Positions 2,712 through 18,181 of a stretch of DNA of 64,000 nucleotides are shown piece after piece. Within the stretch, counting starts at the first letter, position 1, and every line of letters starts with the position of its first letter. The position numbers and the translations under genes were made by a program. This stretch comes from a bacterium. GTDB lineage: Bacteria > Verrucomicrobiota > Verrucomicrobiia > Limisphaerales > UBA11358. Under the pieces are notes generated by a model. It was not told the origin of the DNA. It saw only the letters and a list, made by a program, of their open reading frames with translations, and ran no database searches. The stretch covers positions 1 through 64,000 of the forward strand of contig JAJXXW010000085.1 in the NCBI GenBank assembly GCA_021780905.1, given 5' to 3'.

Positions 2712-5700
2712 TTAGTCAGATCGCTTAAAACCAGCAGCAATCATGTTGCCAAGATTGTAGCGGGGAATGTCTGGATAGGTTCTTCCATCAGCCGTAGTCA
2801 CTTTGACATTTTTGGAATCGGTTAAAATTGTATTCAGCCGATACTTGCCCGGCGGTAATGGCTGCTTGGCGTGTGTCACAAGTTTGTCCACCTCAACCAA
2901 ACATCCGCTCTGAAAAAATCCGATAACACGGCATTTGTCACCGAGCCTTTCGGTGAGTTCCTTCGCAACCTGTGCCTGTGATTCAAAAGCATAGACCGGG
3001 CGCACTTGAGCCGTCTCTTTGGTCTGGCCTTTTTTGTCCGTGTTGGTTTCCACATAGACAATTTGCCCTTTGTGGCCTTTGAGCGCCTTGCGATAGGCTC
3101 CGGTTCCATCTTTGGAAAGGTCTTTGTATTCCTTTGGCTGCCCCACATTCATCAGCACGCTCAAAACACGCGAACCAGCCGAGCCGTCTTTGTGCGGTAA
3201 ATTAAAATTCTCGCAGAATTTTTTCCACGCACCTTCGTCCGGCATTGTGGCGTGAAATGCCGCCAGCAATTTTTGAATGTGTCCATCACGGACGGCTTTG
3301 ATCTGGTCGCCAAGATAATCGAGGCTGAAAACCTGCTTCTGTTTTACCGTGGTGTAGGCGAGTTTCAAAAGTTCAACGCGTTGGACAATCACCTTGTCGT
3401 CGCCCTCACCCCGCGCCCCATAAATGCTTTCGGCCAAGGCCGACTTTTCAAAGCAGAGACTTTGCGGAACGACCGATGAAATTTCCTTTTCAAAAAATCC
3501 TTTGGCGTTTTTGTGGATGGGTTCCGGGAAGCGGAAGAAATCTTCTTTTTTCTCATTACGCGCCCAAGTGGGAATAAAGCTAATCACCATTGCATCCAGC
3601 GCGTGATGTCGGTCGTCATCCCGATTTTTCATTTCTGCCTCCTCGCGTGTTTTCGCATCGGGATTAAGCACCATATTCAAATCATACTTCCGCCGAACGC
3701 GGCCTGTGAGACCGCCCGATATGACGGTAATTTTCCGGCGGCGTTCTTCATCCAGTGCAAATGGCCAGCCGAAGTGAATGCAGAGAATCGCCTGTGCGAG
3801 TTTTGAAATCCAAGCGGTTTCTGCCAATGCCGTGTATTTCTGGACAAGTTCGGAAGCATCCGCCTGCGTCAACAGCCGGACTTTCTTTTTGCCCAGTGTG
3901 CCTTGTAGCGAACTGACACGGCGGACGTATGCCGCCCATTTTTCCGGCATATCCTGCTGAAACCATTCAAACGGAGTCCGGCATTTTTTCATCTGCTCGT
4001 TGACATGGCGTGTCGTGACAACCTTGTTCACGACTGCGTCCGGCCCGTTGTATCCGCCTTGCTGTGGCACAATGTGGTCAATGACCAAATCATCTAAATT
4101 CGCCAGACCAATCTTTTGCTCCGTATAAATACACGGTTCATCTGACAACTGCCGCTGGGTGGCGTCAATGTTGAGTGTGCCATTCGGAAAATAAACACAC
4201 TGAAATCCCTGCGACCGCAATAGCAAATACTTTTGCACGGCATCGCGCGATTTACAGCCAAGCTCTTTGATGATTTCCAGCGCATCTTTGGCTTCTTTTT
4301 TTCGCTCCCGCGCCCAACTGCCATAATCAAATTGCGCTTGCTGGCCTAGAAAACTTTCCGGCAAGTTGTCGCGGACAAATTCTAACGCAACATAGGTAGG
4401 CACGCCAAAGCCGGGCAGTTTTTCTTTTTTATCTCCATATTGCAATTTGTTCAAACGCGTGGCGAATTCGCTTAAACGATGCCTGACGATTGGATCGTTC
4501 TGTTCGCCAATTAAATCACGGATGGCCTTTACCCGCTCATCGGGAGTGGAGCCAGCACGCATAACTTGCATGGCGAGTCTTTCGTTGGGGATGTATGTCT
4601 TTTGCCATGAAATTCCCATGCGTTCAGCGCAGAAACTTTTAATGTCATCCCGCACAAGTCCTTTTTTAGGGTCAGCATCAACAGGGATTTTTGTTTCTAA
4701 CTCGTGGCGGAATTCATCCGGGGACAAACCGCCCAAAACAAATTCGCGCAAAAGCCGCAAAGCTGGCCGGGAAAACCGGCTACGACCTTTTGGTTTTGGC
4801 GATTCGACTTCTTTGTGGGCTGGAAGCGGAGTTCCATGCAGTTCCTCTTTTATCAAAGCGCCCAGTTTTGACTCGGTCAACTCGTAACTGCGAAGCAGAA
4901 CGTCACTGAAAATAGAAGCCTTTTCCGGCTGGTTCAATTTTTCAACCGAACCGTTTTTCCGCAAGACTTGTATGTTGTCAAGCTGCCCGGCAAACCATGC
5001 CATTAACTGCTCGCGGTTTTGCGGTTTCCCTTTGGACGGTTTGATTGGTTTTGGCAAACAAGAATCATCCCACTTAAATTCTTTGGCAAACTTCCCCCAA
5101 GTTTTCGATTCAACGCGATAACAGGCCGGGTCAGGGAAATCGAAAATCTGCTTGAGTTCATCCGGCGTCAGGCTGTCTTCCTTTTTGGCTCGCGTGAAAC
5201 GCAGATTTTTTAATTTCCAAAGAAATGCGACTTCGGCTGGCAAAAGACTTTCAGGCTTGGGAAGCCCATTGCTATCAAACCGAAAATGAACTGCACAGAC
5301 TTGGAACCGGGGCAGTAGCGAGCAGTTGTTGACAATGCGATTGTCAAAGCGGGGGATTTTTTGACCTAGCACGCCCTGCCAGTCATTTTTACCACCTTCT
5401 TTCAAATCATATTTTTTACGCAAGTCGGGATAGTATGAGGCATACGCTTTTCCTGCCGGACCATAAAGCAAATAATCCGCTTTGCCAGCCAGTGCCGCGT
5501 AATGTTTTGCCGCACCATCCACAAGCGCACGAATTTCCTTTTCTACATCCGCACGGTCAAAGCGCACATTCCGTGTGCTTTGCGCCAGACAGTTGATTCG
5601 TTCCTGCAAAGGGGCGTCTGGTGCTTCCGGATTCCAAAGTCCCATTTTGGCGGCATCAAAATATGCCGGGTAATGATAGCGTGTATCGGAAATTTCTTGT

Positions 5701-6347
5701 TTGAATATCTTTGACCACGCTTCGACTGCTGTTTTATATGCCGGGTCTTTTTTAGCCAGTGCTTTATCAATTTCTTCTTCTGACCTGCCTTGACGTTTTT
5801 GTTCGCGTGCCGCCCAAGCCACTTTGCCATAACCCCGTTTCTGCATGGCCGAATGGAACGCCTTGAAAACCTGCCACGGTTCCAGCATTTCACCGCGCAA
5901 TAATTTGATGCGAAGCAGGCAGGAGGTATAACAGGTGCCGTCACCCGGTGCGGGAAATTCCCGTTCCAAGCGCGGATCGCCTTTGGCGGTTTCAGTCCAT
6001 TTGCCTTTAGTTTTGTGCCAAAGCTCTTTTGGAATAATCTTCCCATTTGCATCCACCTTGCCGACCTGCCGGCCTTTGAGAATTTCAATGCCGGCGTCGC
6101 GCATGACTTTTTCCAGCCATTGCTCGCGCGCTTTGTGAGCCTGCCGCGTGCGCCACATCCGGCGGCGACCGGCGGCGGTTTTGGTTTCGGCAAATTCCGC
6201 CGGAATGAGCAGGGAGGTCTTGTGCAGAAATTCGTTGCCGCGCCGCACGGCCTCGCCGATGGAGCCTTTGCCCAAATCAAACGCCCAGACGATTTGAGTT
6301 GAAGCCGATTCCAGTTTTTTATTCAGAACGTAATCTTTCATAGCCAA
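2712..6347 (-). CDS. cas9: CRISPR-associated endonuclease Cas9, 1211 aa, subtype II-C-like
   Basis: RNA-guided double-strand DNA nuclease. RuvC-I is at residues 20-34 (VWAFDLGKGSIGEAV, Asp24). The Arg-rich bridge helix follows at about 60-80 (GRRRMWRTRQAHKAREQW). RuvC-II is around 650-662 (YVALEFVRDN, Glu656). The HNH domain is around 750-790 (LVIDHIVPQQGG, Asp757 and His758; Asn783 in HVNEQMKKC). RuvC-III is around 909-922 (DDDRHHALDAMV, His914/His915 and Asp918). All nuclease residues are present, so it is predicted active. The C-terminal third (about 930-1211) should hold the PAM-interacting region. Length is between NmeCas9 and SpCas9. With no csn2 or cas4 in the window, II-C is the likely subtype. 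A start at the second Met (residue 3) is possible. The gene is visibly less GC-rich than its neighbours. Confidence 0.97.
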   Translation of the reverse strand: MAMKDYVLNKKLESASTQIVWAFDLGKGSIGEAVRRGNEFLHKTSLLIPAEFAETKTAAGRRRMWRTRQAHKAREQWLEKVMRDAGIEILKGRQVGKVDANGKIIPKELWHKTKGKWTETAKGDPRLEREFPAPGDGTCYTSCLLRIKLLRGEMLEPWQVFKAFHSAMQKRGYGKVAWAAREQKRQGRSEEEIDKALAKKDPAYKTAVEAWSKIFKQEISDTRYHYPAYFDAAKMGLWNPEAPDAPLQERINCLAQSTRNVRFDRADVEKEIRALVDGAAKHYAALAGKADYLLYGPAGKAYASYYPDLRKKYDLKEGGKNDWQGVLGQKIPRFDNRIVNNCSLLPRFQVCAVHFRFDSNGLPKPESLLPAEVAFLWKLKNLRFTRAKKEDSLTPDELKQIFDFPDPACYRVESKTWGKFAKEFKWDDSCLPKPIKPSKGKPQNREQLMAWFAGQLDNIQVLRKNGSVEKLNQPEKASIFSDVLLRSYELTESKLGALIKEELHGTPLPAHKEVESPKPKGRSRFSRPALRLLREFVLGGLSPDEFRHELETKIPVDADPKKGLVRDDIKSFCAERMGISWQKTYIPNERLAMQVMRAGSTPDERVKAIRDLIGEQNDPIVRHRLSEFATRLNKLQYGDKKEKLPGFGVPTYVALEFVRDNLPESFLGQQAQFDYGSWARERKKEAKDALEIIKELGCKSRDAVQKYLLLRSQGFQCVYFPNGTLNIDATQRQLSDEPCIYTEQKIGLANLDDLVIDHIVPQQGGYNGPDAVVNKVVTTRHVNEQMKKCRTPFEWFQQDMPEKWAAYVRRVSSLQGTLGKKKVRLLTQADASELVQKYTALAETAWISKLAQAILCIHFGWPFALDEERRRKITVISGGLTGRVRRKYDLNMVLNPDAKTREEAEMKNRDDDRHHALDAMVISFIPTWARNEKKEDFFRFPEPIHKNAKGFFEKEISSVVPQSLCFEKSALAESIYGARGEGDDKVIVQRVELLKLAYTTVKQKQVFSLDYLGDQIKAVRDGHIQKLLAAFHATMPDEGAWKKFCENFNLPHKDGSAGSRVLSVLMNVGQPKEYKDLSKDGTGAYRKALKGHKGQIVYVETNTDKKGQTKETAQVRPVYAFESQAQVAKELTERLGDKCRVIGFFQSGCLVEVDKLVTHAKQPLPPGKYRLNTILTDSKNVKVTTADGRTYPDIPRYNLGNMIAAGFKRSD

Positions 6348-6467: not shown

Positions 6468-6871
6468 TCAGGCTGTCTGGTTTTTGGGCTGGCTGGGACA
6501 GTTTCGGCCGGAAAAGGCGTTTCATCTCGGTGTTTGGTTTCAAAGTCGCAGCGTTTTATCCTTTCATCGCGGCGTTTTGTCTTAAAGCTGCTTTGTTTTG
6601 CCATTTCGTCGCGGCGTTTTATGGCCAAGTCCCGCTGGTTTGTCCTTTCATCCCTCGGTTTTGTCTCAAAGTCGCGGCGTTATGAGTCTCCATCCAGCTG
6701 TATTGTCATTCCCGCCCTTTGATTGGTGTTTTGGTCGCGGCGTTTGGTCGCAAAATCGCTCGGTTTTATCCTTTCATCCCGGCGAGTTGCCTTAAAACCG
6801 GAGCGTTTTATGGCTTCACCTCCCAGTCTTATGCCGTCGAAACGGTTGAGGTCAAATTGGCCGGGGCACAT
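6468..6871 (-). pseudogene. Broken heptad-repeat reading frame (KRRD repeats)
   Basis: Read on the minus strand, this stretch gives about 130 codons interrupted by one stop (TAA near 6680). The translation is dominated by a seven-residue unit of the form I/T-K-R-R-D-E/F-R/E, for example FKTKRRDERIKRCDFE and FETKPRDERTNQRD. It starts at MCPGQFDLNRFDG (6871) and ends ETVPASPKNQTA before TGA at 6468-6470. The product would be highly charged and could form a helix. No family was recognised. It may be a decayed repeat-protein gene transcribed toward cas9, or a minisatellite whose unit happens to be three-base divisible. Confidence 0.4.
6518..6811. repeat. Degenerate 21-bp tandem repeat, 14 units
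   Basis: Fourteen contiguous 21-bp units run from 6518 without any insertion or deletion. Typical units are CCTTTCATCGCGGCGTTTTG+T (6560) and CTCAAAGTCGCGGCGTTATG+A (6665). Two unit flavours (CCTTTCATC and CTCAAAGTC starts) tend to alternate, suggesting a 42-bp higher-order unit. The core GTCGCGGCGTTTT is the most conserved part. A weak fifteenth unit extends to 6832. The rest of the gap (6833-7041) shows only an AT-rich stretch at 6885-6945. Confidence 0.85.
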
Positions 6872-7773: not shown

Positions 7774-8712
7774 TCACAATCCGGACGCCCGCCGCGCCAG
7801 CACCTTGAGCCGGGCGCGGAAGTTTTCCACGATTTCGGCCAGCCAGGCGTTGGCGAACCGCTTGCGCACCGTTAGCGCGTAGAACTTTTCCGTCAAACCG
7901 GGCACGCGTTGCATGAATTTGATATTGCTCGATTGCAATTCACGCTCGACGACGATTTTGGAAACCAGCGCCAAACCTTCGCCGCTCAATGCGAGCAGGC
8001 GTAGCAAGGCCATGTCGTCCACTTCTGCATGCACAAACGGCTCGATGCCGGCGTTTGCGAGAATCAAATCGAAGTCTGCGCGCACATCGCTCTGGCGGCT
8101 GGGCAGGAAGAGCGGAACGTCCTTAATAAATTTGGGGAACTTGCCGGGCGAGAGTTTGAGTTTTTTGCCGCCGACGAGAAATACCGGCACTTCGCCAAGT
8201 TGATGATTAAAGATGTTTTGTTCCTGGTCGGCGCGCAACGGAATGTTTGACAGCAAAAGGTCAACCTTGTGCTCCTGCAACTGCCGCGTCAATTCGTCCA
8301 GCGCGCCCGCGACGACGACAACTTTGGTGCGCGTGTCGGCGAGAATCGGCTGGATGAAATCGAACTGCAAATTTTTCGAGAGCGGGCCGACGGCGCCGAT
8401 GCGAAGCACGCGCTGGCGCTGCCCGCTGGATTGACGGAAGCGCGTGATGAGTTCGTGTCCCGACGTAAAAATGGTATCCGCGTGCTCCAGCGCCACCCGC
8501 CCGGCATCAGTGAGGTGCAACTCGCGCCCCCGCCGGTCAAAGAGCGGCTGCCCCAGCCAGTCTTCCAGTTCCGCGAGCTGCTCGCTCAATGTGGATTGCG
8601 AAATCTTTAGCTTCTCCGCCGCCCGCGTGACGTTGCGATGTCGCGCGATCATCCAGAAATGACGCAGATGGTGATAGTTCAGCCACTCCGGGTTTTCAAA
8701 CGCCGAATTCAT
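7774..8712 (-). CDS. LysR-family regulator (NhaR-like)
   Basis: A 312-residue LysR-type regulator. The N-terminal winged helix-turn-helix is clear: LNYHHLRHFWMIARHRNVTR, AAEKLKISQSTLSEQLAELE and LFDRRGRELHLTDAGR. The substrate-binding half follows (LRIGAVGPLSKN, then LFLPSRQSDVRADFD and LSGEGLALVSKIVV). The N-terminus resembles NhaR. The start at 8712 is chosen from the NhaR-type NH2 end; an upstream in-frame Met at 8739 would run into the dyad. It is divergent from dabB with a 90-bp gap holding a T-N11-A site, so it most likely controls the dab-pur-pyc cluster and itself. The effector is unknown. Confidence 0.9.
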   Translation of the reverse strand: MNSAFENPEWLNYHHLRHFWMIARHRNVTRAAEKLKISQSTLSEQLAELEDWLGQPLFDRRGRELHLTDAGRVALEHADTIFTSGHELITRFRQSSGQRQRVLRIGAVGPLSKNLQFDFIQPILADTRTKVVVVAGALDELTRQLQEHKVDLLLSNIPLRADQEQNIFNHQLGEVPVFLVGGKKLKLSPGKFPKFIKDVPLFLPSRQSDVRADFDLILANAGIEPFVHAEVDDMALLRLLALSGEGLALVSKIVVERELQSSNIKFMQRVPGLTEKFYALTVRKRFANAWLAEIVENFRARLKVLARRASGL

Positions 8713-8737
8713 CCAATCGGAATAACCGATGGATATC

Positions 8738-8752
8738 ATAGATACAATCTAT
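8738..8752. promoter_or_regulatory. LysR-type T-N11-A dyad operator
   Basis: ATAGAT-ACA-ATCTAT is a 15-bp perfect inverted repeat, and T8739 to A8751 fits the LysR T-N11-A rule. It lies in the divergent lysR-dabB gap, 26 bp upstream of the lysR start and 51 bp upstream of dabB. This is the expected place for an operator serving both genes. Binding is inferred. Confidence 0.7.
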
Positions 8753-8802
8753 TTTTACGAATCAGCCGCCTCAACTATGCTGTCGCCATTATTGGAAACC
8801 CC

Positions 8803-10413
8803 ATGACCAACGAATACCATCAAATCATCACCGCCATGTTGGCGTCCGCCGGGCCGCTGGCGCTGATGACCTTTGGTCTGCTGCCCGAATCGGCCCACCA
8901 GCGCCGCGGAATCCACGCCGCCCGGATGGGGGCGGTCATTGCTCTCGCCGCCTTCACGCTCGCGTTGCTGGCCGCTGCGAACTTGTTGTTTGGCGGGGTG
9001 GCCAATGTTGAGTGGCCGGTCGTTGGTGATTTTTATCTGGGCATTTATTTCGACAACTTGTCCGCAGTTGTTCTGGGGCTGGTTTCCTTTTTGCTGGCGG
9101 TCGTCGCCCGCTATTCCGTCAACTATCTCGCCGGGGATCCGGCGCAGGGACGCTTCACCAAATGGCTGTGCCTGACCGGCGGCTCGGTGCTGTTCATTGT
9201 CATCTCCGGCAACCTCATCCAATTCACGCTCGCTTGGTGCGCGACGAGCCTCTGCTTGCATCAATTACTGGTGTTCTTTCCTGAACGTCCCGGCGCGGTG
9301 CTGGCGGCGCGGAAAAAATTCATTATTAGCCGACTCGGTGATGCGTGTCTTTTAACTGTGATCTTTCTGGTTCACGCGAATTTTCACTCCTGTGATTTTT
9401 CCGTGCTGTTCACTGCTGCAAACCAATGGCGCGCAACCGGCACGCTGAACAATCCTTTTGCTGTCAACGCCATCTGCTTCCTGCTGGTCGCCGGTGCCAT
9501 GCTAAAGTCCGCACAGTTCCCGTTTCATAGTTGGCTGCCGGATACGATGGAAACGCCGACGCCGGTTTCCGCGCTGATGCACGCGGGCATCATCAATGCC
9601 GGAGGCTTTCTCATCATCCGGCTGAATCCACTGGTCACGCTCTCGCCGGCGGCCATGTCCACGCTCGCGCTGTTCGGCGCGTTCACCGCCCTGTTCGCCT
9701 CGCTCGTCATGCTCACGCACGCGAGTGTGAAACGGTCGCTCGCATTTTCCACCGTCGCGCAGATGGGTTTTATGATGTTGGAATGTGGTCTCGGTGCGTT
9801 CGGTCTCGCGGTGCTGCACCTCGTGGCGCACTCGCTTTACAAAGCGCACGCATTTCTTTCATCCGGCAGCATCGTCAGCTTGGCCATATCTGCGTGGACG
9901 CCGACCGAAAAACCGAACACGCATCCGGTCACGCTGGTCGCCGCGTTCGTCACGGCTATCGCGCTCGCGCTCGGCTGCGCGTGGATTTTCGGCGTGGATT
10001 ACCGGCACGAACCCGCACTTTTCACCCTCGGCTGCACGTTTGCAATGGCGCTGGCCTACGCGCTGTGGAATTTGTGGAGTCAATCGTTCGACCTCAAGCT
10101 CGCGGCGGTCGGTGTAATTTTCAGCGGCGGAATCGTGGCCGTCTATTTCTCGCTGCACAAAGTATTTGCCCAGCTCGTCGGCAAGAACGAGTGGGTCAAT
10201 TCGCAGCTCAACTCCTGGCCGGGAATGATCTTAATGGCGACTCTGCTCGGGCTGTTCTTGCTGGTGTTGGTCGTGCAAACGGAATTGCCCGCCTGGACGA
10301 ACCGCCCGTTTTTTCGGGCGATTTACGTTCACGCGCGAAATGGATTTTACTTCAACACGCTCGCCAACCGGCTCATCGCCGCCGTCTGGCCGGTGAAAAA
10401 GTCATCGCAATAA
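8803..10413 (+). CDS. dabB: Inorganic carbon transporter subunit DabB
   Basis: A 536-residue polytopic membrane protein of the NADH dehydrogenase subunit L (NuoL)/Mrp antiporter superfamily. Many hydrophobic helices are visible. The motif KSAQFPFHSWLPDTMETPTP and the following VSALMHAGIINAGGFL match the proton-channel core, and HASVKRSLAFSTVAQMGFMM is the typical second half. With DabA it forms the DAB complex, thought to couple cation influx to one-way CO2 hydration and bicarbonate accumulation. The start at 8803 is preferred because the longer frame (to 8638) would run through the operator and into lysR. dabA begins three bases after its stop codon. Confidence 0.92.
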   Translation: MTNEYHQIITAMLASAGPLALMTFGLLPESAHQRRGIHAARMGAVIALAAFTLALLAAANLLFGGVANVEWPVVGDFYLGIYFDNLSAVVLGLVSFLLAVVARYSVNYLAGDPAQGRFTKWLCLTGGSVLFIVISGNLIQFTLAWCATSLCLHQLLVFFPERPGAVLAARKKFIISRLGDACLLTVIFLVHANFHSCDFSVLFTAANQWRATGTLNNPFAVNAICFLLVAGAMLKSAQFPFHSWLPDTMETPTPVSALMHAGIINAGGFLIIRLNPLVTLSPAAMSTLALFGAFTALFASLVMLTHASVKRSLAFSTVAQMGFMMLECGLGAFGLAVLHLVAHSLYKAHAFLSSGSIVSLAISAWTPTEKPNTHPVTLVAAFVTAIALALGCAWIFGVDYRHEPALFTLGCTFAMALAYALWNLWSQSFDLKLAAVGVIFSGGIVAVYFSLHKVFAQLVGKNEWVNSQLNSWPGMILMATLLGLFLLVLVVQTELPAWTNRPFFRAIYVHARNGFYFNTLANRLIAAVWPVKKSSQ

Positions 10414-10416
10414 AAA

Positions 10417-12930
10417 GTGAACACAATCCTCGAAACAGAAGCTGTCGCGAAGAACGAACTACTTCAACACGACGTTCAGTCCGCGTGCAAACGGATTCCG
10501 CCATTGTGGCCGCTGAAGAATTTTGTCGCGGTCAATCCGTTTGTCGGCTTGAGCAAACAGCATTTTATTGAAGCGACGAAACTGATTCAGCAGGTCGGCC
10601 ACGGCGAAATGCTCATGCCGGCGGCATTTTATCGCGACCAAATAGACAGTGGACGAATTCAGGAGGAAAATTTTCAAGTGGCAATGCAGCTTGCGCTAAA
10701 AAATCTGCCGCCGGATGGGGCGAAGGGAATTGATTTTGTCAGCCTCAATGCCTTGCAACAGGCGCTCACGGAAGCTCCCGAGCCAAAGGCGGCGGGGCGC
10801 TTTTTGACCTTCGCTGATTTTCTGGATGCCCAAACCGGAAGTGTCTGGGCGGCGTTTGTGGTCGAGGAAACTTCCAAATGGTGCTCGGCGTATTTTGACC
10901 AGGGCCAGTCTTCGTGGCGAATGCCGTGGCGGCATCTCGGTTTGTTCGCCGCGTGGAAAGCCGCGGCGCAGCTCGACGCCAACCCCGAAATGGCAGGACT
11001 GAAAAACTTCCGCGAATTTGTCGGCACACTGCCGGACGATAATTTTGAATTAATTGAGCAAGCGCTGGGCAGGCTTCAGGTGACTGGGAAATTGGCGACG
11101 GATTTTCTGCACCGGCAACTGATGAGTGTTTCCGGCTGGAGCAGTCACGTCCAGTTTCTTGTGCGCGAGAAAAGCCTGGGCGGACTGGCTGACAATTCGC
11201 TCACACAACTGCTCGCCATCCGTCTGGCTTATGACTTGGCGCTCCTGAAGCAGTTTGGCGATGAGAAGCATTTGTCCGTGTGGAAAAAATCTTTTGCCCA
11301 ACTCGAATATGAAGCGGAAAACACTTCGTCAGGCGTGCTTGCCCGTTACGTCGCGCAACTTGCTTTGGAACATAGCTACCAAAACGGTTTGATCGCGAAG
11401 CTTAAAAAACATTCGCCGCAACCCGTCGCGACGGGACAAAAATCCTTGCAGGCAGTTTTTTGCATTGATGTGCGCTCGGAAGTTTTTCGTCGCGCCTTGG
11501 AAGCGCAGTCGGAAGACATCGCGACCATCGGTTTCGCCGGATTTTTCGGCATGGCGATTGAATATTTGAAATTTGGCCAACAAACCGGCGGCGCGCAATG
11601 TCCCGTGTTGCTCACGCCGAAGTTCAAGGTGCGTGAATCATTGCGCGGCCCGGCGGCGGACCGCGAGGGCGGGCTGCTGCGCCGGATAAATTTCTGGCAG
11701 ACGGTTAACGGCGCGTGGAACGCGTTCAAGACTTCGGCCATCTCGTGCTTTTCGTTTGTTGAGACCGCTGGTCTGTGGTTTGGGGTAAAGCTGGCGCAGG
11801 ATTCGCTTGCGCTCGCCGCGCCGGAAACCGGATTTGCGTGCGCCCGGCAAAATTATTTTCCAAAAATCGAACGCGAAGTCTGCTGCCAGGAAAAGCACGG
11901 TCACGCCGCAGAAACCGGTATCGCGCCCGCCGACCAAATCGCAATGGCTGCCTTCGCGTTGAAAAATATGGGGTTGGTCGCCAATTTTGCGAAGGTGGTT
12001 TTAATCTGCGGTCACGGCAGCGCGACGGCAAACAATCCTTACGGCTCGGCGCTGGATTGTGGCGCGTGCGGCGGTCACGCGGGCGACGCCAATGCGCGCG
12101 TCGCGGCGGATATTCTTAATCAGCCCGCCGTGCGTGCTGGTTTGCAGCAGCAAGGAATTAAAATTCCGGACGAAACAGTTTTTATCGCCGGTTTGCACAA
12201 CACGACCACGGATGAAATTTTGATTTACGAAGACGAGGCGCTTTCGCCGAGTCAAGCGGCTGAACTGGAAAAGATCAAAAACTGGTTGTCCGCCGCCTCC
12301 AAACAAGCGCGGCGCGAACGGGCGTCGTCGCTTGGTCTGGCGGGAATCGCGGACGGAAAACTGGATAAAAAAGTTTTCGCACGCAGCCGCGACTGGTCGC
12401 AGGTGCGGCCGGAGTGGGGCTTGGCCGGCAACGCCGCGTTCATCGCCGCGCCGCGCGAGCGGACGCAAGGCTTGAACCTTGGTGGCCGGACATTTCTGCA
12501 CGATTACCACGCGCACCTCGACGCGGACAAAGCCACGTTGGAGCTGATTCTTATCGCACCGATGGTTGTCGCCAGCTGGATCAATCTGCAATACTACGGC
12601 TCGACGGTGGACAACCGGCTGTTCGGCAGCGGCAACAAGGTGTTACACAATGTCGTTGGCACGTTCGGCGTGTGGCAGGGCAACGGCGGCGATTTGCAGG
12701 CGGGCCTACCGCTGCAATCCATCCGCGACGGCGCACGGTTGATGCACGAACCGCTGAGGTTGAGCGTGTTTATCGAGGCGGCGCGGGCGGACATCGAAGA
12801 AATTCTTGCGAATCACGCCGGTGTGCGCGAGTTGGTGGAGAATGGCTGGTTGCATCTGTTCGCGATGGAAAGCGGCTGTAAAAAATTTTACCGTTTCGTT
12901 GGCCACGGTTTCGATGGAAAATCACTTTAA
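10417..12930 (+). CDS. dabA: Inorganic carbon transporter subunit DabA (DUF2309)
   Basis: An 837-residue protein of the DUF2309/DabA family, a beta-carbonic-anhydrase-like zinc subunit of the DAB complex. The predicted zinc and active-site residues are all present: Cys349 and Asp351 (VFCIDVRSE), His533 (CGHGSATANNP) and Cys548 (LDCGACGGHAG). The His-to-Cys spacing of 15 equals that recalled for the Halothiobacillus protein. The N-terminus has PLWPLKNFVAVNPFVGL as in the family. The start is GTG at 10417, three bases after the dabB stop. purK starts six bases after the dabA stop, so uptake and purine carboxylation genes share a transcript. Predicted to be cytoplasmic, membrane-attached through DabB. 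Confidence 0.95.
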   Translation: MNTILETEAVAKNELLQHDVQSACKRIPPLWPLKNFVAVNPFVGLSKQHFIEATKLIQQVGHGEMLMPAAFYRDQIDSGRIQEENFQVAMQLALKNLPPDGAKGIDFVSLNALQQALTEAPEPKAAGRFLTFADFLDAQTGSVWAAFVVEETSKWCSAYFDQGQSSWRMPWRHLGLFAAWKAAAQLDANPEMAGLKNFREFVGTLPDDNFELIEQALGRLQVTGKLATDFLHRQLMSVSGWSSHVQFLVREKSLGGLADNSLTQLLAIRLAYDLALLKQFGDEKHLSVWKKSFAQLEYEAENTSSGVLARYVAQLALEHSYQNGLIAKLKKHSPQPVATGQKSLQAVFCIDVRSEVFRRALEAQSEDIATIGFAGFFGMAIEYLKFGQQTGGAQCPVLLTPKFKVRESLRGPAADREGGLLRRINFWQTVNGAWNAFKTSAISCFSFVETAGLWFGVKLAQDSLALAAPETGFACARQNYFPKIEREVCCQEKHGHAAETGIAPADQIAMAAFALKNMGLVANFAKVVLICGHGSATANNPYGSALDCGACGGHAGDANARVAADILNQPAVRAGLQQQGIKIPDETVFIAGLHNTTTDEILIYEDEALSPSQAAELEKIKNWLSAASKQARRERASSLGLAGIADGKLDKKVFARSRDWSQVRPEWGLAGNAAFIAAPRERTQGLNLGGRTFLHDYHAHLDADKATLELILIAPMVVASWINLQYYGSTVDNRLFGSGNKVLHNVVGTFGVWQGNGGDLQAGLPLQSIRDGARLMHEPLRLSVFIEAARADIEEILANHAGVRELVENGWLHLFAMESGCKKFYRFVGHGFDGKSL

Positions 12931-12936
12931 TAGCTC

Positions 12937-14133
12937 ATGCACGAGACTTACGATTCTGAATTCAACCGACAGACCGGCCCAAAAAAATATCCGGTGCGGC
13001 TGGGCATCATCGGCGGCGGGCAGCTCGCGCGCATGACGGCCATCGCCGCCCTGCCGTTGGGCGTGGAAGTCATCGTGCTGGAGAAAAACCCGCACAGCCC
13101 GGCGGCGCGGCTCTCGCCCGATTGCATCGTCGGCGATTGGGCGGACCGTGAGACGCTGCTGCGGTTTGCCGCGCAATGCGAAGTCATCACGCTGGAAAAT
13201 GAATTCGTGGATGCCGGCGCGTTGGCAGTTTTGGAAAAAGCGGGGCACCAAGTTTTTCCGAGTGCCAAATGCATCGCGGTGACGCAGGACAAGTTCGCGC
13301 AAAAATCCGCGCTACAGACTGCCGGCATCACCGTGCCAGAATTCTGCGCGGTGAAATCGCCGGAGGAAATTATTGCCACCGGAACTAATTTCGGCTGGCC
13401 GGTGGTTTTGAAATCGCGGCGCAACGGCTACGACGGCAAGGGTAATTTCACATTAAAATCCGAAGCCGATATTGCCGATGGTTGGCGAACTTTGGGCGGC
13501 GGCAAAAATGAATTAATGGTCGAGGCGTGGTTTCCGTTCGTCAAAGAACTGGCGGTCATCGTCACGCGCGGGCGGAACGGCGCGACGGCGGTTTATCCGG
13601 TTGTTGAGACGATTCAGCGCAATCATGTTTGCCATGTCGTCAAAGCGCCGGCGCAGATTTCCGACGAACTTGCCCAGCGCGCCGCCTCGCTGGCAAAGCG
13701 CGCCGTGGAGGCCGTCGGCGGCATCGGCAGTTTTGGCGTGGAAATGTTTTTATCTGCGACCGGCGAGCTGGCCATCAACGAACTCGCGCCGCGTGTGCAC
13801 AACTCCGGGCATTACACGATTGAGGCGTGCGATTGCTCGCAGTTTGAGAATCATGTCCGCGCCGTGCTCGGCTGGCCGCTGGGCAATCCGCTGATGGTCG
13901 CGCCGGCGGCGGTGATGGTGAACCTGCTCGGCACAGAGAAAACCTCCGGCCAGCCGCGCGGATTGGATGCGGCGCTGCTTATGACTGGTGTGCGGCTGCA
14001 TCTCTACGGCAAATTGATGAGCGGGCGGGGCCGCAAAATGGGGCACGTCACCGTATTGGAAAATTCCGTGGAAAAGGCACAAGCCATTGCTGAACGCGCG
14101 GCAAAAAAAATCTATTTTGGAGAAAAATTATGA
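12937..14133 (+). CDS. purK: N5-carboxyaminoimidazole ribonucleotide synthase
   Basis: A 398-residue ATP-grasp enzyme that uses ATP and bicarbonate to carboxylate AIR to N5-CAIR in purine synthesis. It shows the PurK N-terminus ([20 protein letters not shown]), ATP-grasp elements ([32 protein letters not shown]) and the C-terminal signature [18 protein letters not shown]. Its stop overlaps the purE start by four bases (ATGA), so translation is coupled. Its position just after dabA suggests local bicarbonate supply. Confidence 0.96.
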
Positions 14134-14642
14134 AAGAGAAAAATCCGCCGCTCGTCGGCATCATCATGGGCAGCGATTCGGACTGGCCGACGATGGAAGC
14201 GGCTTATCAGGTTTGCCGCGAGTTCAATATTCCTTGTGAAGTGCGGGTCGTCTCCGCGCACCGCACGCCGGATGACATGGCGCGTTACGCGAAAACAGCA
14301 CACAAACGCGGCTTGCGCGTGATCATCGCCGGCGCGGGCGGCGCGGCGCATCTGCCGGGCATGGTGGCGAGCCACACGCCGTTGCCGGTGATTGGCGTGC
14401 CGGTCGAGAGCAAAAGTTTGAAGGGACTCGACTCGCTGCTCTCCATTGTGCAGATGCCGGGGGGAATTCCCGTGGCGACGGTGGCCATTGGCGGCGCGAA
14501 GAATGCCGGCCTGCTGGCGGTTTCCATTTTGGGAGCAAGCGACAAGCGCATACGCGATCAGATCCTGACATTTAAGAAGAAATTAGCCGATGAATCCCGG
14601 CGGCGCGGACGGAAGCTAAATTTGAATCCAAAAATAAATTGA
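14130..14642 (+). CDS. purE: N5-CAIR mutase
   Basis: A 170-residue class I PurE, which converts N5-CAIR to CAIR, the next step after PurK. Diagnostic motifs are [24 protein letters not shown] and [19 protein letters not shown], with the active-site His in AHRTP. Length is normal apart from a basic C-terminal tail ([12 protein letters not shown]). Co-translated with purK; pyc follows after 68 bp. Confidence 0.97.
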
Positions 14643-14710
14643 ACACATCTGAAAAAGCGATTCTCGGATTGATTGAATGAGACTTTTCCGCTTTCATCTG
14701 CCCTGAATTT

Positions 14711-17700
14711 ATGAGTTTGACTGCCACGCCAAATCGCCAGAGAAAATTACTCGTCGCCAACCGCAGCGAAATCGCCATCCGCGTCTTTCGTGCCGCCACG
14801 GAACTTGGCCTGCGCACCGTCGCCATTTATGCGCAAGAAGATCGGCTGGCCATCCATCGCTTCAAGGCGGACGAGGCGTATGTGGTCGGCGAAGGCAAAG
14901 GGCCGGTCGGCGCGTATCTGGATATTCCCAGCATCATTGCGTTGGCAAAGGAAAAGGGCGTGGACTTCATCCATCCCGGCTACGGATTTCTTTCCGAGAA
15001 CGCCGAGTTCGCCAAAGCGTGTGAAGAGGCGGGAATTATTTTTGTCGGCCCGCGCGTGGATTTGCTGCGCAGCATGGGCGACAAAACCGCCGCCCGGGCG
15101 CTGGCGCAAAAAGTCAAAGTGCCGGTGTTGCCGGGCACGGAAGACCCGATTGAAGACCGTGCCGAAGCGTTGAAGGTGGCAAAGCAGATCGGCTTTCCAC
15201 TCATCATCAAGGCGGCGTTCGGTGGCGGCGGGCGCGGGATGCGTGTCGTCCACAAGCCGGGAGATTTGGCGGATTTGCTTGACGAAGCACAAGGCGAGGC
15301 CGGTCGGGCATTCGGCAATCCGGCGGTTTTTTTGGAGCGCTATATTCCGCGCGCCAAGCACATCGAGGTGCAGATTCTTGGCGACAAGCACGGCAAGGTG
15401 GTTCATCTGCACGAACGCGATTGTTCCGTGCAACGCCGTCATCAGAAAGTCATCGAAATCGCGCCGAGTGTGGAATTAGACAAGAATGTGCGCGCCGAGT
15501 TGTGCGCCGCCGCCGTGAAACTATGCCGCGAAATCAAATACGACAACGCCGGCACGGTGGAGTTTCTCTACGATCAGGATACGAAGGAATGGTTCTTCAT
15601 CGAGATGAACCCGCGCATCCAGGTTGAGCACACGGTCACGGAAGTCATCACCGGCCTGGACCTCGTGCGCTCGCAGATATTGATCGCCGACGGCAAGCCG
15701 ATGCACGGCAAAGAAGTCGGCATTCCGGAGCAGGAAGATATTCCGCGCAACGGTTATGCCGTGCAATGCCGCATTACGACGGAAGACCCGGAGAACAAAT
15801 TTCAGCCTGATTACGGCCGCATCCTGACGTATCGCAGCGCCGGCGGTTTTGGTGTGCGCCTGGACGGCGGCATGGGGTATGGCGGCGCGGTGGTCACGCC
15901 GTTTTACGATTCGCTGCTGGTGAAGCTGACGGTTTCGGCGCAGACGTTTGAGGCGGCGCTGCAACGCATGGATCGCGCGCTACGCGAGTTTCGGATTCGC
16001 GGCGTGAAGACGAACATTCCGTTCCTGGAAAACGTCATTCATAATGAAACCTTCAAGTCCGGTCAGGCTTCGACGACGCTGATTGACACCACGCCGGAAC
16101 TTTTCAAGCTCAAGGTTAAAAAGGATCGCGCGACGAAGCTGCTAAACTTCATCGGCGATGTGACGGTGAATGGCAATCCTCAGGTGAAAGGTTTTGTGCC
16201 GAAGGAAATTTTTGCAGCCGCGCGCGTTCCCGCGCATGACCGCAAGCAAGTTGCGCCAAACGGGACGCGCCAGTTGCTGTTGTCGCTCGGCGCGAAAAAA
16301 TTCGCCGAGTGGACGCTCAAGCAAAAGCCGCTGCTCATCACCGACACGACGTTCCGTGACGCGCACCAGTCACTTTTCGCCACGCGGTTGCGCGGCTACG
16401 ATATGCTGGCGGTGGCGGAAGCGGTGGCGCAGCGCACGCCGAATTTGTTTTCGATGGAGATGTGGGGCGGGGCGACGTTTGACACCTCCATGCGTTTTCT
16501 GCACGAAGATCCATGGCAGCGCCTGCGCGATTTACGCCAGCGCATTCCGAACATTTGTTTTCAAATGCTTTTTCGCGGCTCGAACGCGGTGGGCTATTCC
16601 AATTATCCCGACAACGCCGTGGCGGGTTTCGTCAAACACGCGGCGGCGAGCGGTATGGATATTTTCCGCATCTTCGATTCGCTGAATTATTTGCCCAACC
16701 TCACCGTCGCGATGGACGCGGTGCAAGAAACGCACGCGATTTGCGAGGCGGCGATTTGTTATACCGGCAACATTCTCGACCCGCAGCGCGACAAATACTC
16801 GCTGAAGTATTACGTCAAGCTGGCAAGGGAATTGGAAAAGATGGGCGCGCACATCCTCGCCATCAAGGACATGGCGGGACTTTGCAAGCCGGCGGCGGCC
16901 AGCGCGCTGGTGAAAGCCTTGAAGGAAGAGATTAGCATTCCGATCCATTTCCACACGCACGACACGAGCGGCATCGCGGCGGCAAGCGTATTGAGCGCGG
17001 CGGAAGCGGGCGTCGACATTGCGGACTTGGCGATTTCTTCGATGAGCGGTTCCACGAGCCAGCCCAATCTGAATTCCATCGTCGCCGCGCTGCGACTCAC
17101 CAAGCGCGATACCGGCCTTGACCTTGACGCCCTGAATGAGTTTGCGGATTACTGGGAGCAGGTGCGCGGCTACTACGCACCGTTTGATACTGCGCCAAAA
17201 TCCGGCAGTGCGGAAGTGTATCTGCACGAGATGCCCGGCGGACAGTTTACCAACCTCAAAGAGCAGGCCGCCTCGATGGGCCTCGCGCACCGCTGGCCGG
17301 AGATTGCGCGGACTTACGCGGAGGTCAACCAGCTTTTTGGCGATATCGTGAAGGTGACGCCGAGCAGTAAGGTGGTTGGCGACATGACGATGTTTCTCGT
17401 CACCCGCGGCATCAAGCCGGCGGATGTTTTGAATCTCGAACCTGGGGCGACGCCGTTCCCGGAATCCGTGATTGATATGATTGGCGGCGGTCTGGGGCAA
17501 CCGCTGGGGGGGTGGCCGAAGAAATTGCAGCACGTCATTCTTGGCGACCGTAAGCCGCTGAAAGGTCGTCCGGGTGAATCCTTGAAGCCGCTCAATTTCA
17601 AAAAAATCGCCGAGGAACTTTCTGTGAAACTCAAGCGTCCGGCGACGGACGACGATGTGTTCAGCCACATCATGTATCCCGAAGTGTTCGCGGCGTTCGT

Positions 17701-18181
17701 GAAGAACGAAAATAATTTCGGCGATTTGTCCGCGCTGCCGACGCCGGCGTTTTTCTATGGGATGAAGCCGGGACAGGAAATTTCCGTGGAAATCGAGTCT
17801 GGCAAAACACTGTTTATCCGACTGGTCAACATCGGTGCCGTGGACGCAGAGGGCAAGCGGCAGGTGAATTTTGAATTGAACGGCATGACGCGCCAGCTCG
17901 CCATCGTGGACCGGTCCGCCAAGCCGACCATCAAGGCGCGCGTGAAAGCGGATGCCGCCAAGCAAAACGAAGTCGGCGCGCCAATTCCCGGCCTCGTTAC
18001 CGCGCTCGCGGTGAGCGTGGGCGCGAAGGTCGTGAAGGGCGACAAGTTGCTGACGCTCGAAGCCATGAAAATGCAGACGACCATCTATGCGCCGGCCGAC
18101 GGCGTGGTGGGCGAAATCTTTGTGGCGAACGGTGATGCGTTGGAGAGTAAAGATTTGATTTTAAAACTGCGCGCCGCCTGA
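14711..18181 (+). CDS. pyc: Pyruvate carboxylase (single chain)
   Basis: An 1156-residue biotin enzyme making oxaloacetate from pyruvate, ATP and bicarbonate. The biotin carboxylase domain occupies about residues 12-460 (KLLVANRSEIAIRVFRAA, then FGGGGRGMRVV and FIEMNPRIQVEHTVTE). The carboxyltransferase domain starts near 540 (ITDTTFRDAHQSLFATR; MWGGATFDTSMRFL; HFHTHDTSGIAAAS). The PYC C-terminal region and a biotinyl domain follow, with biotinyl Lys1120 in LEAMKMQTT. All three domains are intact. It is the second bicarbonate-consuming enzyme directly downstream of dabBA. The 68-bp gap after purE shows no strong terminator, so co-transcription is possible. Confidence 0.97.
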   Translation: MSLTATPNRQRKLLVANRSEIAIRVFRAATELGLRTVAIYAQEDRLAIHRFKADEAYVVGEGKGPVGAYLDIPSIIALAKEKGVDFIHPGYGFLSENAEFAKACEEAGIIFVGPRVDLLRSMGDKTAARALAQKVKVPVLPGTEDPIEDRAEALKVAKQIGFPLIIKAAFGGGGRGMRVVHKPGDLADLLDEAQGEAGRAFGNPAVFLERYIPRAKHIEVQILGDKHGKVVHLHERDCSVQRRHQKVIEIAPSVELDKNVRAELCAAAVKLCREIKYDNAGTVEFLYDQDTKEWFFIEMNPRIQVEHTVTEVITGLDLVRSQILIADGKPMHGKEVGIPEQEDIPRNGYAVQCRITTEDPENKFQPDYGRILTYRSAGGFGVRLDGGMGYGGAVVTPFYDSLLVKLTVSAQTFEAALQRMDRALREFRIRGVKTNIPFLENVIHNETFKSGQASTTLIDTTPELFKLKVKKDRATKLLNFIGDVTVNGNPQVKGFVPKEIFAAARVPAHDRKQVAPNGTRQLLLSLGAKKFAEWTLKQKPLLITDTTFRDAHQSLFATRLRGYDMLAVAEAVAQRTPNLFSMEMWGGATFDTSMRFLHEDPWQRLRDLRQRIPNICFQMLFRGSNAVGYSNYPDNAVAGFVKHAAASGMDIFRIFDSLNYLPNLTVAMDAVQETHAICEAAICYTGNILDPQRDKYSLKYYVKLARELEKMGAHILAIKDMAGLCKPAAASALVKALKEEISIPIHFHTHDTSGIAAASVLSAAEAGVDIADLAISSMSGSTSQPNLNSIVAALRLTKRDTGLDLDALNEFADYWEQVRGYYAPFDTAPKSGSAEVYLHEMPGGQFTNLKEQAASMGLAHRWPEIARTYAEVNQLFGDIVKVTPSSKVVGDMTMFLVTRGIKPADVLNLEPGATPFPESVIDMIGGGLGQPLGGWPKKLQHVILGDRKPLKGRPGESLKPLNFKKIAEELSVKLKRPATDDDVFSHIMYPEVFAAFVKNENNFGDLSALPTPAFFYGMKPGQEISVEIESGKTLFIRLVNIGAVDAEGKRQVNFELNGMTRQLAIVDRSAKPTIKARVKADAAKQNEVGAPIPGLVTALAVSVGAKVVKGDKLLTLEAMKMQTTIYAPADGVVGEIFVANGDALESKDLILKLRAA

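Follow-up and report, generated by a model that had tools for sequence, protein, structure and literature searches.

A LysR-Type Regulator and Its Double Operator Beside Exchangeable Bicarbonate Pumps and Bicarbonate-Using Enzymes: A Candidate Modular Locus

Introduction

A LysR-type regulator and the genes divergent from it are proposed to form a modular locus for the supply and use of bicarbonate, in which both the pump and the carboxylase are exchangeable; on the sequence comparisons presented here, a probability of roughly 0.7 is assigned to this reading. A preliminary description of the same DNA had suggested that the pump feeds anabolic carboxylations in a heterotroph under one LysR, and comparative evidence now speaks for this core idea. 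The same LysR and operator stand before an unrelated module of carbonic anhydrase (CA), SbtA, and SbtB that makes the same product; the downstream users alternate between PurK-PurE and PEP carboxylase (PEPC), and PurK and PEPC use HCO3− (PMC10880623, in its available part); purK-purE has joined a second, different LysR-dab locus; and purK occurs in each of the 12 genomes of the genus that carry this LysR. The arrangement suggests that the pump may exist to feed purine and C4-acid synthesis.

DAC pumps and SbtA are known outside autotrophs, where their customers have been deduced largely from mutant physiology, e.g., for MpsAB. Two unrelated pumps trading places behind one regulator, in one run with PurK-PurE and PEPC, provide genetic evidence for the customer and allow a test of whether bicarbonate-concentrating systems serve purine and C4-acid synthesis in ordinary bacteria. 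For heterotrophs, such a physiological role has already been put forward: in the accessible portion of their paper, the authors working on MpsAB of S. aureus proposed that the pump supplies pyruvate carboxylase, acetyl-CoA carboxylase, and purine carboxylase (PMC6689103). MpsAB resembles the present system in being a DAC pump of a heterotroph with carboxylases as proposed recipients. Unlike the present run, which includes the users, the mpsABC operon has no carboxylase named in that portion, and mpsC is dispensable (PMC6689103). A literature search covering titles and the beginnings of abstracts, with most subscription journals outside its scope, returned nothing on an operon that joins such a pump to purK or PEPC.

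Gene Organization

The window, i.e., the whole 64,000-nucleotide stretch of DNA analyzed, lies on contig C45 of a 96-contig, 3.89 Mb assembly (completeness 90.6%, contamination 6.65%) whose closest named relatives are MAGs labelled Verrucomicrobia subdivision 3 and Pedosphaera. According to the ORF coordinates, lysR on the minus strand is followed by the divergent genes dabB-dabA-purK-purE-pyc on the plus strand. The regulator (7774–8712; PF00126 and PF03466) belongs to an ORF that extends at its longest to 8739. Its start is most likely codon 10 of this long ORF, at 8712 on the minus strand, because relatives carry in-frame stops just 5′ of this codon (TGA at codon −1 in G034, TAA at codon −7 in G035). 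A double LysR box at 8716–8753, to which no strand is assigned, occupies the divergent lysR/dabB promoter and represents the putative operator.

On the plus strand, dabB (8803–10413; PF00361/PF00662) encodes the NuoL/MrpA-like membrane subunit of the DAB inorganic-carbon pump and is the neighbor of dabA in relatives; its start was placed at 8803 (MTNEYHQII..), and the longest-ORF start at 8638 was set aside. It is followed by dabA for the zinc subunit of the pump (10417–12930; PF10070, 886.5 bits), purK for the HCO3−-using N5-CAIR synthetase (12937–14133; TIGR01161, 412 bits, above the cut-off), purE for an N5-CAIR mutase of the class I type (14130–14642; TIGR01162, 223.9 bits, above the cut-off), and pyc for pyruvate carboxylase (14711–18181; NF009554, 1755.5 bits). 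The gaps amount to 3 bp (dabB-dabA), 6 bp (dabA-purK), −4 bp (purK-purE), and 68 bp (purE-pyc). The six genes with their positions and this spacing had been given in the preliminary description; the former are borne out by Pfam, TIGR, and NCBIfam matches together with the ORF coordinates, from which the latter was reproduced.

The same description had counted pyc among the members of a bicarbonate island. It is indeed adjacent here, but pyc adjoins purE in only five of the 16 purK genomes of the genus, and in G042 it lies near lepA in a genome where no purK was found. Given this low frequency of adjacency, pyc was downgraded to the weakest member of the run, and its membership in the operon is uncertain. 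No terminator-like site was predicted on the plus strand at 14643–14710, i.e., in the purE-pyc gap, nor in any other gap of the run on that strand, while the window as a whole contains 31 such sites against 19.0 in shuffled sequences (sd 5.4). Sigma-70-like promoters were no more frequent than by chance (three against 4.2 expected), no Rfam family reached its cut-off in the window, and a tRNA search of the window was negative.

Operator and Regulator

T-N11-A is the box rule for LysR-type (LTTR) regulators. Between lysR and dabB, the sequence ATCGGAATAACCGAT (T-N11-A) is followed after 7 bp by ATAGATACAATCTAT; in the aligned upstream regions, ATCGGAATAACCGAT and seven bases precede a second box with the end ACAATCTAT. 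The box starts are 22 bp apart, and the arrangement is kept across 24 aligned loci, being degenerate in G278. A pair of T-N11-A boxes spaced by about two helical turns within a divergent promoter matches the divergent-operon layout of LTTRs. Across the 24 loci, the average conservation reaches 1.64 bits per column in box 1 and 1.52 in box 2, the latter value being favored because box 2 served as the alignment anchor, compared with 0.74 in the spacer and 0.34 in the downstream flank. In G034 the first box is non-coding, since a stop codon directly precedes LysR codon 10.

A degenerate operator pattern, with up to two mismatches allowed, was searched in 49 genomes of the genus, with the reversed pattern as a control. 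It yielded 14 sites in 12 genomes, exactly the carriers of the LysR, and the control yielded none. Thirteen of these sites are located at lysR, and the fourteenth belongs to G046, where it precedes dabB by about 50 bp. In this genome, a gene for a 1400-aa pectate-lyase-like/PKD protein (L048:11298–15500) stands between two operator copies and splits lysR from dabB. The same operator precedes DAB modules and SbtA modules alike, and it was recovered at 22 of the 23 loci of the order with a LysR of at least 62% identity; the degenerate site of G278 was missed by the pattern.

Regulators of the CbbR/CcmR/CmpR type are divergently encoded and have T-N11-A boxes before inorganic-carbon uptake genes. 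The present LysR shares this layout but differs by its low similarity to CbbR (46.7 bits against a profile cut-off of 450). LysR relatives of about 52–56% identity (seven loci) were left out of the family, no pump gene having been found at any of them. Three of these (L188, L190, L192) adjoin an isocitrate dehydrogenase gene; at the remaining four, the ORFs submitted to Pfam, where there were any, received no name.

Distribution in the Genus

The genus set comprised 49 genomes including the present one, all labelled as the same genus and 66–97% complete; absences are provisional, since they rest on single-sequence searches in assemblies of this completeness. The LysR (E up to 1e-60) was found in 12 genomes, dabA in nine (in G039 as a C-terminal remnant only), and SbtA in four, never together with dabA. 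The 16 genomes with purK include every dabA, SbtA, and LysR genome (12 of 12 for the latter); a seventeenth match, in G018, was dropped (59 aa, E 9.8e-4). PEPC was present in 11 of the 49, the present genome not being among them, and PurE in 47. The locus may explain the coming and going of purK, which is present in 16 of 49 genomes, including all those with a DAB or SbtA pump.

Several arrangements recur. G046 has the same run dabB-dabA-purK-purE, with lysR separated by the inserted gene. In G035 and G041, lysR is followed by dabB-dabA-PEPC-purK-purE, and in G035 by pyc too. In G034, G015, and G029, as well as in G077 from another family, lysR is followed by CA-SbtA-SbtB-purK-purE; in G044, SbtA precedes purK on two contigs, both partial and one without CA. 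PEPC lies near purK-purE without this LysR or a pump alongside in G039, G004, and G028 (in pieces); the dabA remnant of G039 is on a contig other than that of PEPC-purK-purE, and the PEPC of G004 consists of two pieces with stops. G036 was considered as a single locus and rejected, as dabBA-PEPC and PEPC-purK-purE end different contigs and the PEPC overlap differs.

Survey of the Order

Among 320 genomes of the order, the LysR was detected in 51 at E up to 1e-55 and in 24 at 62% identity or more, a number reduced to 23 after removal of a LysR fragment at a contig end (G277). All 23 loci adjoin a carbon-uptake module, namely DabB-DabA in 13 and CA/SbtA/SbtB in 10; the latter count includes G074, where CA alone is visible before the contig ends, and G071, which is without CA. 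In 16 of the 23 loci, purK-purE or PEPC is part of the same stretch (10 of 13 DAB and 6 of 10 SbtA loci). The remaining DAB loci have no carboxylase in their stretches (G013, G159) or end at a contig edge (G043), and the same applies to the SbtA type (G189, G190, and G278; contig edge in G071).

Seen from the pump, dabA occurs in 46 of the 320 genomes, and 32 of these loci were examined; the other 14 are truncated by a contig edge, fragmented, or only 33–38% identical. The 16 loci with a DabA of at least 58% identity, the present one included, comprise 12 with purK or PEPC, one with purE alone (G265), two with neither (G013, G159), and one at a contig edge (G043). All 15 full-length dab loci examined at 47–56% DabA identity are without purK, purE, PEPC, and pyc in their stretches, several of their contigs ending within 1–3 kb of dabA; the 32nd locus is the G039 remnant. 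The conservation of the dabBA-purK linkage, left to be checked by the preliminary description, therefore holds for 12 of the 16 close DabA loci, with purK or PEPC as partner, and not for G013, G159, and the 15 distant loci. Relatives with dabBA unlinked to the carboxylases, which that description had named as grounds for refutation, thus do exist in part.

Further loci extend the range of layouts. Separate events of joining are seen in two genomes (G142, G081) with purK-purE, then another LysR (41–42% identical), then dabB-dabA, and in G074, where purK-purE-PEPC flanks lysR on its opposite side. Outside the family, G168 repeats the present layout up to purE, and G281 and G238 have lysR followed by dabB-dabA-PEPC, with PEPC in place of purK; the operator is present in all three. 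In G083, a purK stub is followed by PEPC at the contig end.

It could be argued that the neighbors are incidental, a mobile lysR-pump cassette having come to lie beside purK-purE (and pyc) and each part having been retained on separate grounds, with no shared function. Cassette transfer is suggested by the patchy occurrence of dabA (9 of 49) and by a LysR of 78–88% identity in other families, and the loci without carboxylases as well as the pyc-lepA neighborhood of G042 fit such an explanation. Against it, purK-purE or PEPC recur in at least four arrangements, with two unrelated pumps and two LysR types. In addition, a chance estimate made by hand (four target genes, 10 kb on each side, a genome of about 4.3 Mb) gives about 2% per locus. 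Compared with this figure, the linkage of pump and carboxylase at 16 of 23 orthologous loci is above chance, the 23 loci not being independent since they are related. Merely incidental neighborhood is considered unlikely.

Phylogeny and Correction for Relatedness

In the LysR tree (37 rows), one clade of 19 with support 100/100 mixes 13 DAB and six SbtA rows, from which it follows that the pump was exchanged in evolution. Five further pump-bearing rows on the same side, all of the SbtA type, fall just outside the mixed clade, and a far clade of seven rows combines DAB with another LysR; support is weak at many inner forks. For the order of the exchange, these placements give mixed signals, with SbtA rows bordering the mixed clade and DAB in a farther one.

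Relatedness was taken into account with a biotin-carboxylase tree of 46 rows from 45 genomes, from which G002, G011, G025, and G039 were left out for want of a usable marker. The present genome appears twice in it owing to its two distinct biotin carboxylases (G000:C68:8757–10085 and G000:C16:3658–4986), which lie apart on the tree and one of which may be foreign given the assembly contamination of 6.65%. On this tree, purK changes at least eight times and LysR at least seven times. The association of purK and LysR yielded only four independent pairs on supported branches, too small a number, with 3.6 changing the same way and none the opposite way (median p 0.125); the joint presence is partly automatic, as the two genes mostly belong to a single cassette.

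Two Unrelated Pumps

The DabA of the window aligns with chain A of PDB 9rd0, the DabA2 of Halothiobacillus neapolitanus, at E 5e-165. Its residues C349, D351, R353, H533, and C548 correspond to C351, D353, R355, H524, and C539 of DabA2, so that all five are kept. According to the accessible part of PMC13144422, Cys351, His524, and Cys539 of DabA2 are the zinc ligands and Asp353-Arg355 form a dyad, and mutation of any of the five gives a growth yield significantly different from that of the wild type. The window thus encodes the zinc ligands and the dyad of a DAB/DAC pump together with a DabB-type PF00361 protein that ends 3 bp before dabA. The full active site and the accompanying DabB are shared with the DAB2 of H. 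neapolitanus; unlike that system, no Rubisco was detected in the present genome, and dabBA stands in a tight run with purK-purE here and with PEPC in relatives.

The alternative module is found in relatives only. Its Pfam names come from the G034 proteins, with PDB comparisons added: an SbtA with Sbt_1 (PF05982, 398.7 bits) and a P-II-like protein (PF00543, 71 bits), which also matches SbtB structures but finds a better-scoring match in TTHA0516 (2cz4). The CA of G034 has a lipobox-like VAGC start. A periplasmic location of the CA is only a suggestion, since the starts of two others inspected (AAGC and MAGC) are outside the lipobox pattern. The module resembles cyanobacterial SbtA-SbtB in its Sbt_1 protein and its SbtB-matching P-II-like protein, but differs in the closeness of the latter to TTHA0516, in the preceding CA with its lipoprotein-like start, and in the purK that follows.

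A role in pH or sodium homeostasis, the locus answering alkaline or salt stress and not carbon shortage, would be in keeping with an antiporter-like DabB, a sodium-driven SbtA, and NhaR as the top-scoring NCBIfam family for the LysR (124.7 bits, below the cut-off of 219); sodium use has also been argued for MpsAB of S. aureus (PMC13144422, in its available part). The modules behind the operator nevertheless share inorganic-carbon chemistry and not ion exchange, with a CO2-hydration site in DabA and a CA with SbtA/SbtB-like proteins in the other case. Moreover, carboxylases do not serve ion balance, and DAB2 did not rescue an nhaAB mutant (PMC13144422, same part). This role is therefore regarded as quite improbable.

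Autotrophy and Proposed Mechanism

The preliminary description had reported the window to be free of Rubisco. This absence extends to the whole assembly: the large subunit (PF00016) was not found in the present assembly (90.6% complete), and the same search was positive in five of 14 control genomes. The enzyme that a Rubisco-serving CO2-concentrating mechanism would require was accordingly not detected in this assembly. That the pump feeds some non-Calvin carbon fixation, as a remnant or hidden autotrophy with purK and PEPC as incidental users, is hardly credible, given that the enzymes encoded directly next to the pump have biosynthetic or anaplerotic roles, even if an assembly of 90.6% completeness may be missing genes and the search for autotrophy covered Rubisco in the present assembly only.

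In the modular supply-and-use locus proposed here, the LysR would occupy the double box in the divergent promoter and turn on the pump, probably under inorganic-carbon scarcity. The pump would load the cytosol with HCO3−, through DabB-DabA in the present genome and through carbonic anhydrase, SbtA, and SbtB in relatives. The same transcript would encode the spenders of this HCO3−, namely PurK-PurE here for purines, PEPC in relatives, and possibly PYC here. The supply and use modules have been exchanged over evolution, with LysR and operator remaining constant. We infer low-carbon sensing, binding of the LysR to its boxes, co-transcription, and the direction of the pump from this arrangement, and the flux into PurK, PEPC, and PYC would be the selected benefit.

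The Purine Branch and a Second PurE

Both PurK and the PurE of the window exceed the curated cut-offs of TIGR01161 and TIGR01162, and the best PDB matches of this PurE are of the bacterial N5-CAIR mutase type, with 3rg8 and 2h31 far weaker; the pair thus consists of PurK and a class I PurE. A second PurE is encoded elsewhere in the genome (G000:C44), and copies of 53–67% identity exist in most genus-mates; it is common in genomes missing purK, and two PurE copies occur in 10 of the 16 purK genomes. The SAHK motif marks class II PurE. An assignment of the second PurE to the CO2-using class II was ruled out, as the copy of the present genome and the 30 aligned PurE have SAHR, and this copy matches class I structures far better than 3rg8.

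As stated in the available part of PMC10880623, PurE can work with CO2 and without PurK at very high inorganic carbon, and cyanobacterial purK mutants require high CO2. These facts fit a locus bringing in PurK where there is an active supply of bicarbonate. Since the second PurE is class I-like, a PurK-free CO2-dependent reaction rests on this source and not on the enzyme class. A bicarbonate-economy regulon without Rubisco can be put forward as a tentative extension, somewhat short of even odds: at low inorganic carbon, one LysR would switch purine synthesis from the PurK-free, CO2-dependent second PurE to PurK-PurE, add a bicarbonate-using enzyme of C4-acid synthesis, and power both by an exchangeable pump; this would amount to a CO2-concentrating mechanism, the customers being purines and oxaloacetate and not Rubisco.

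Other Features of the Window

The window begins within a CRISPR array (1–703) of 11 repeats of about 36 nt with a 66-nt period, which runs off the window start. It is followed by an ORF for a type II-like Cas1 (1814–2740) and, nearby, by a Cas9d-type Cas9 of 1211 aa on the minus strand (2712–6347; NF049971, 992 bits). Between cas9 and a fibronectin-III-like ORF, degenerate repeats occur at 42-nt spacing (6520–6809; mostly TTTCATC..GGCGTTTTG).
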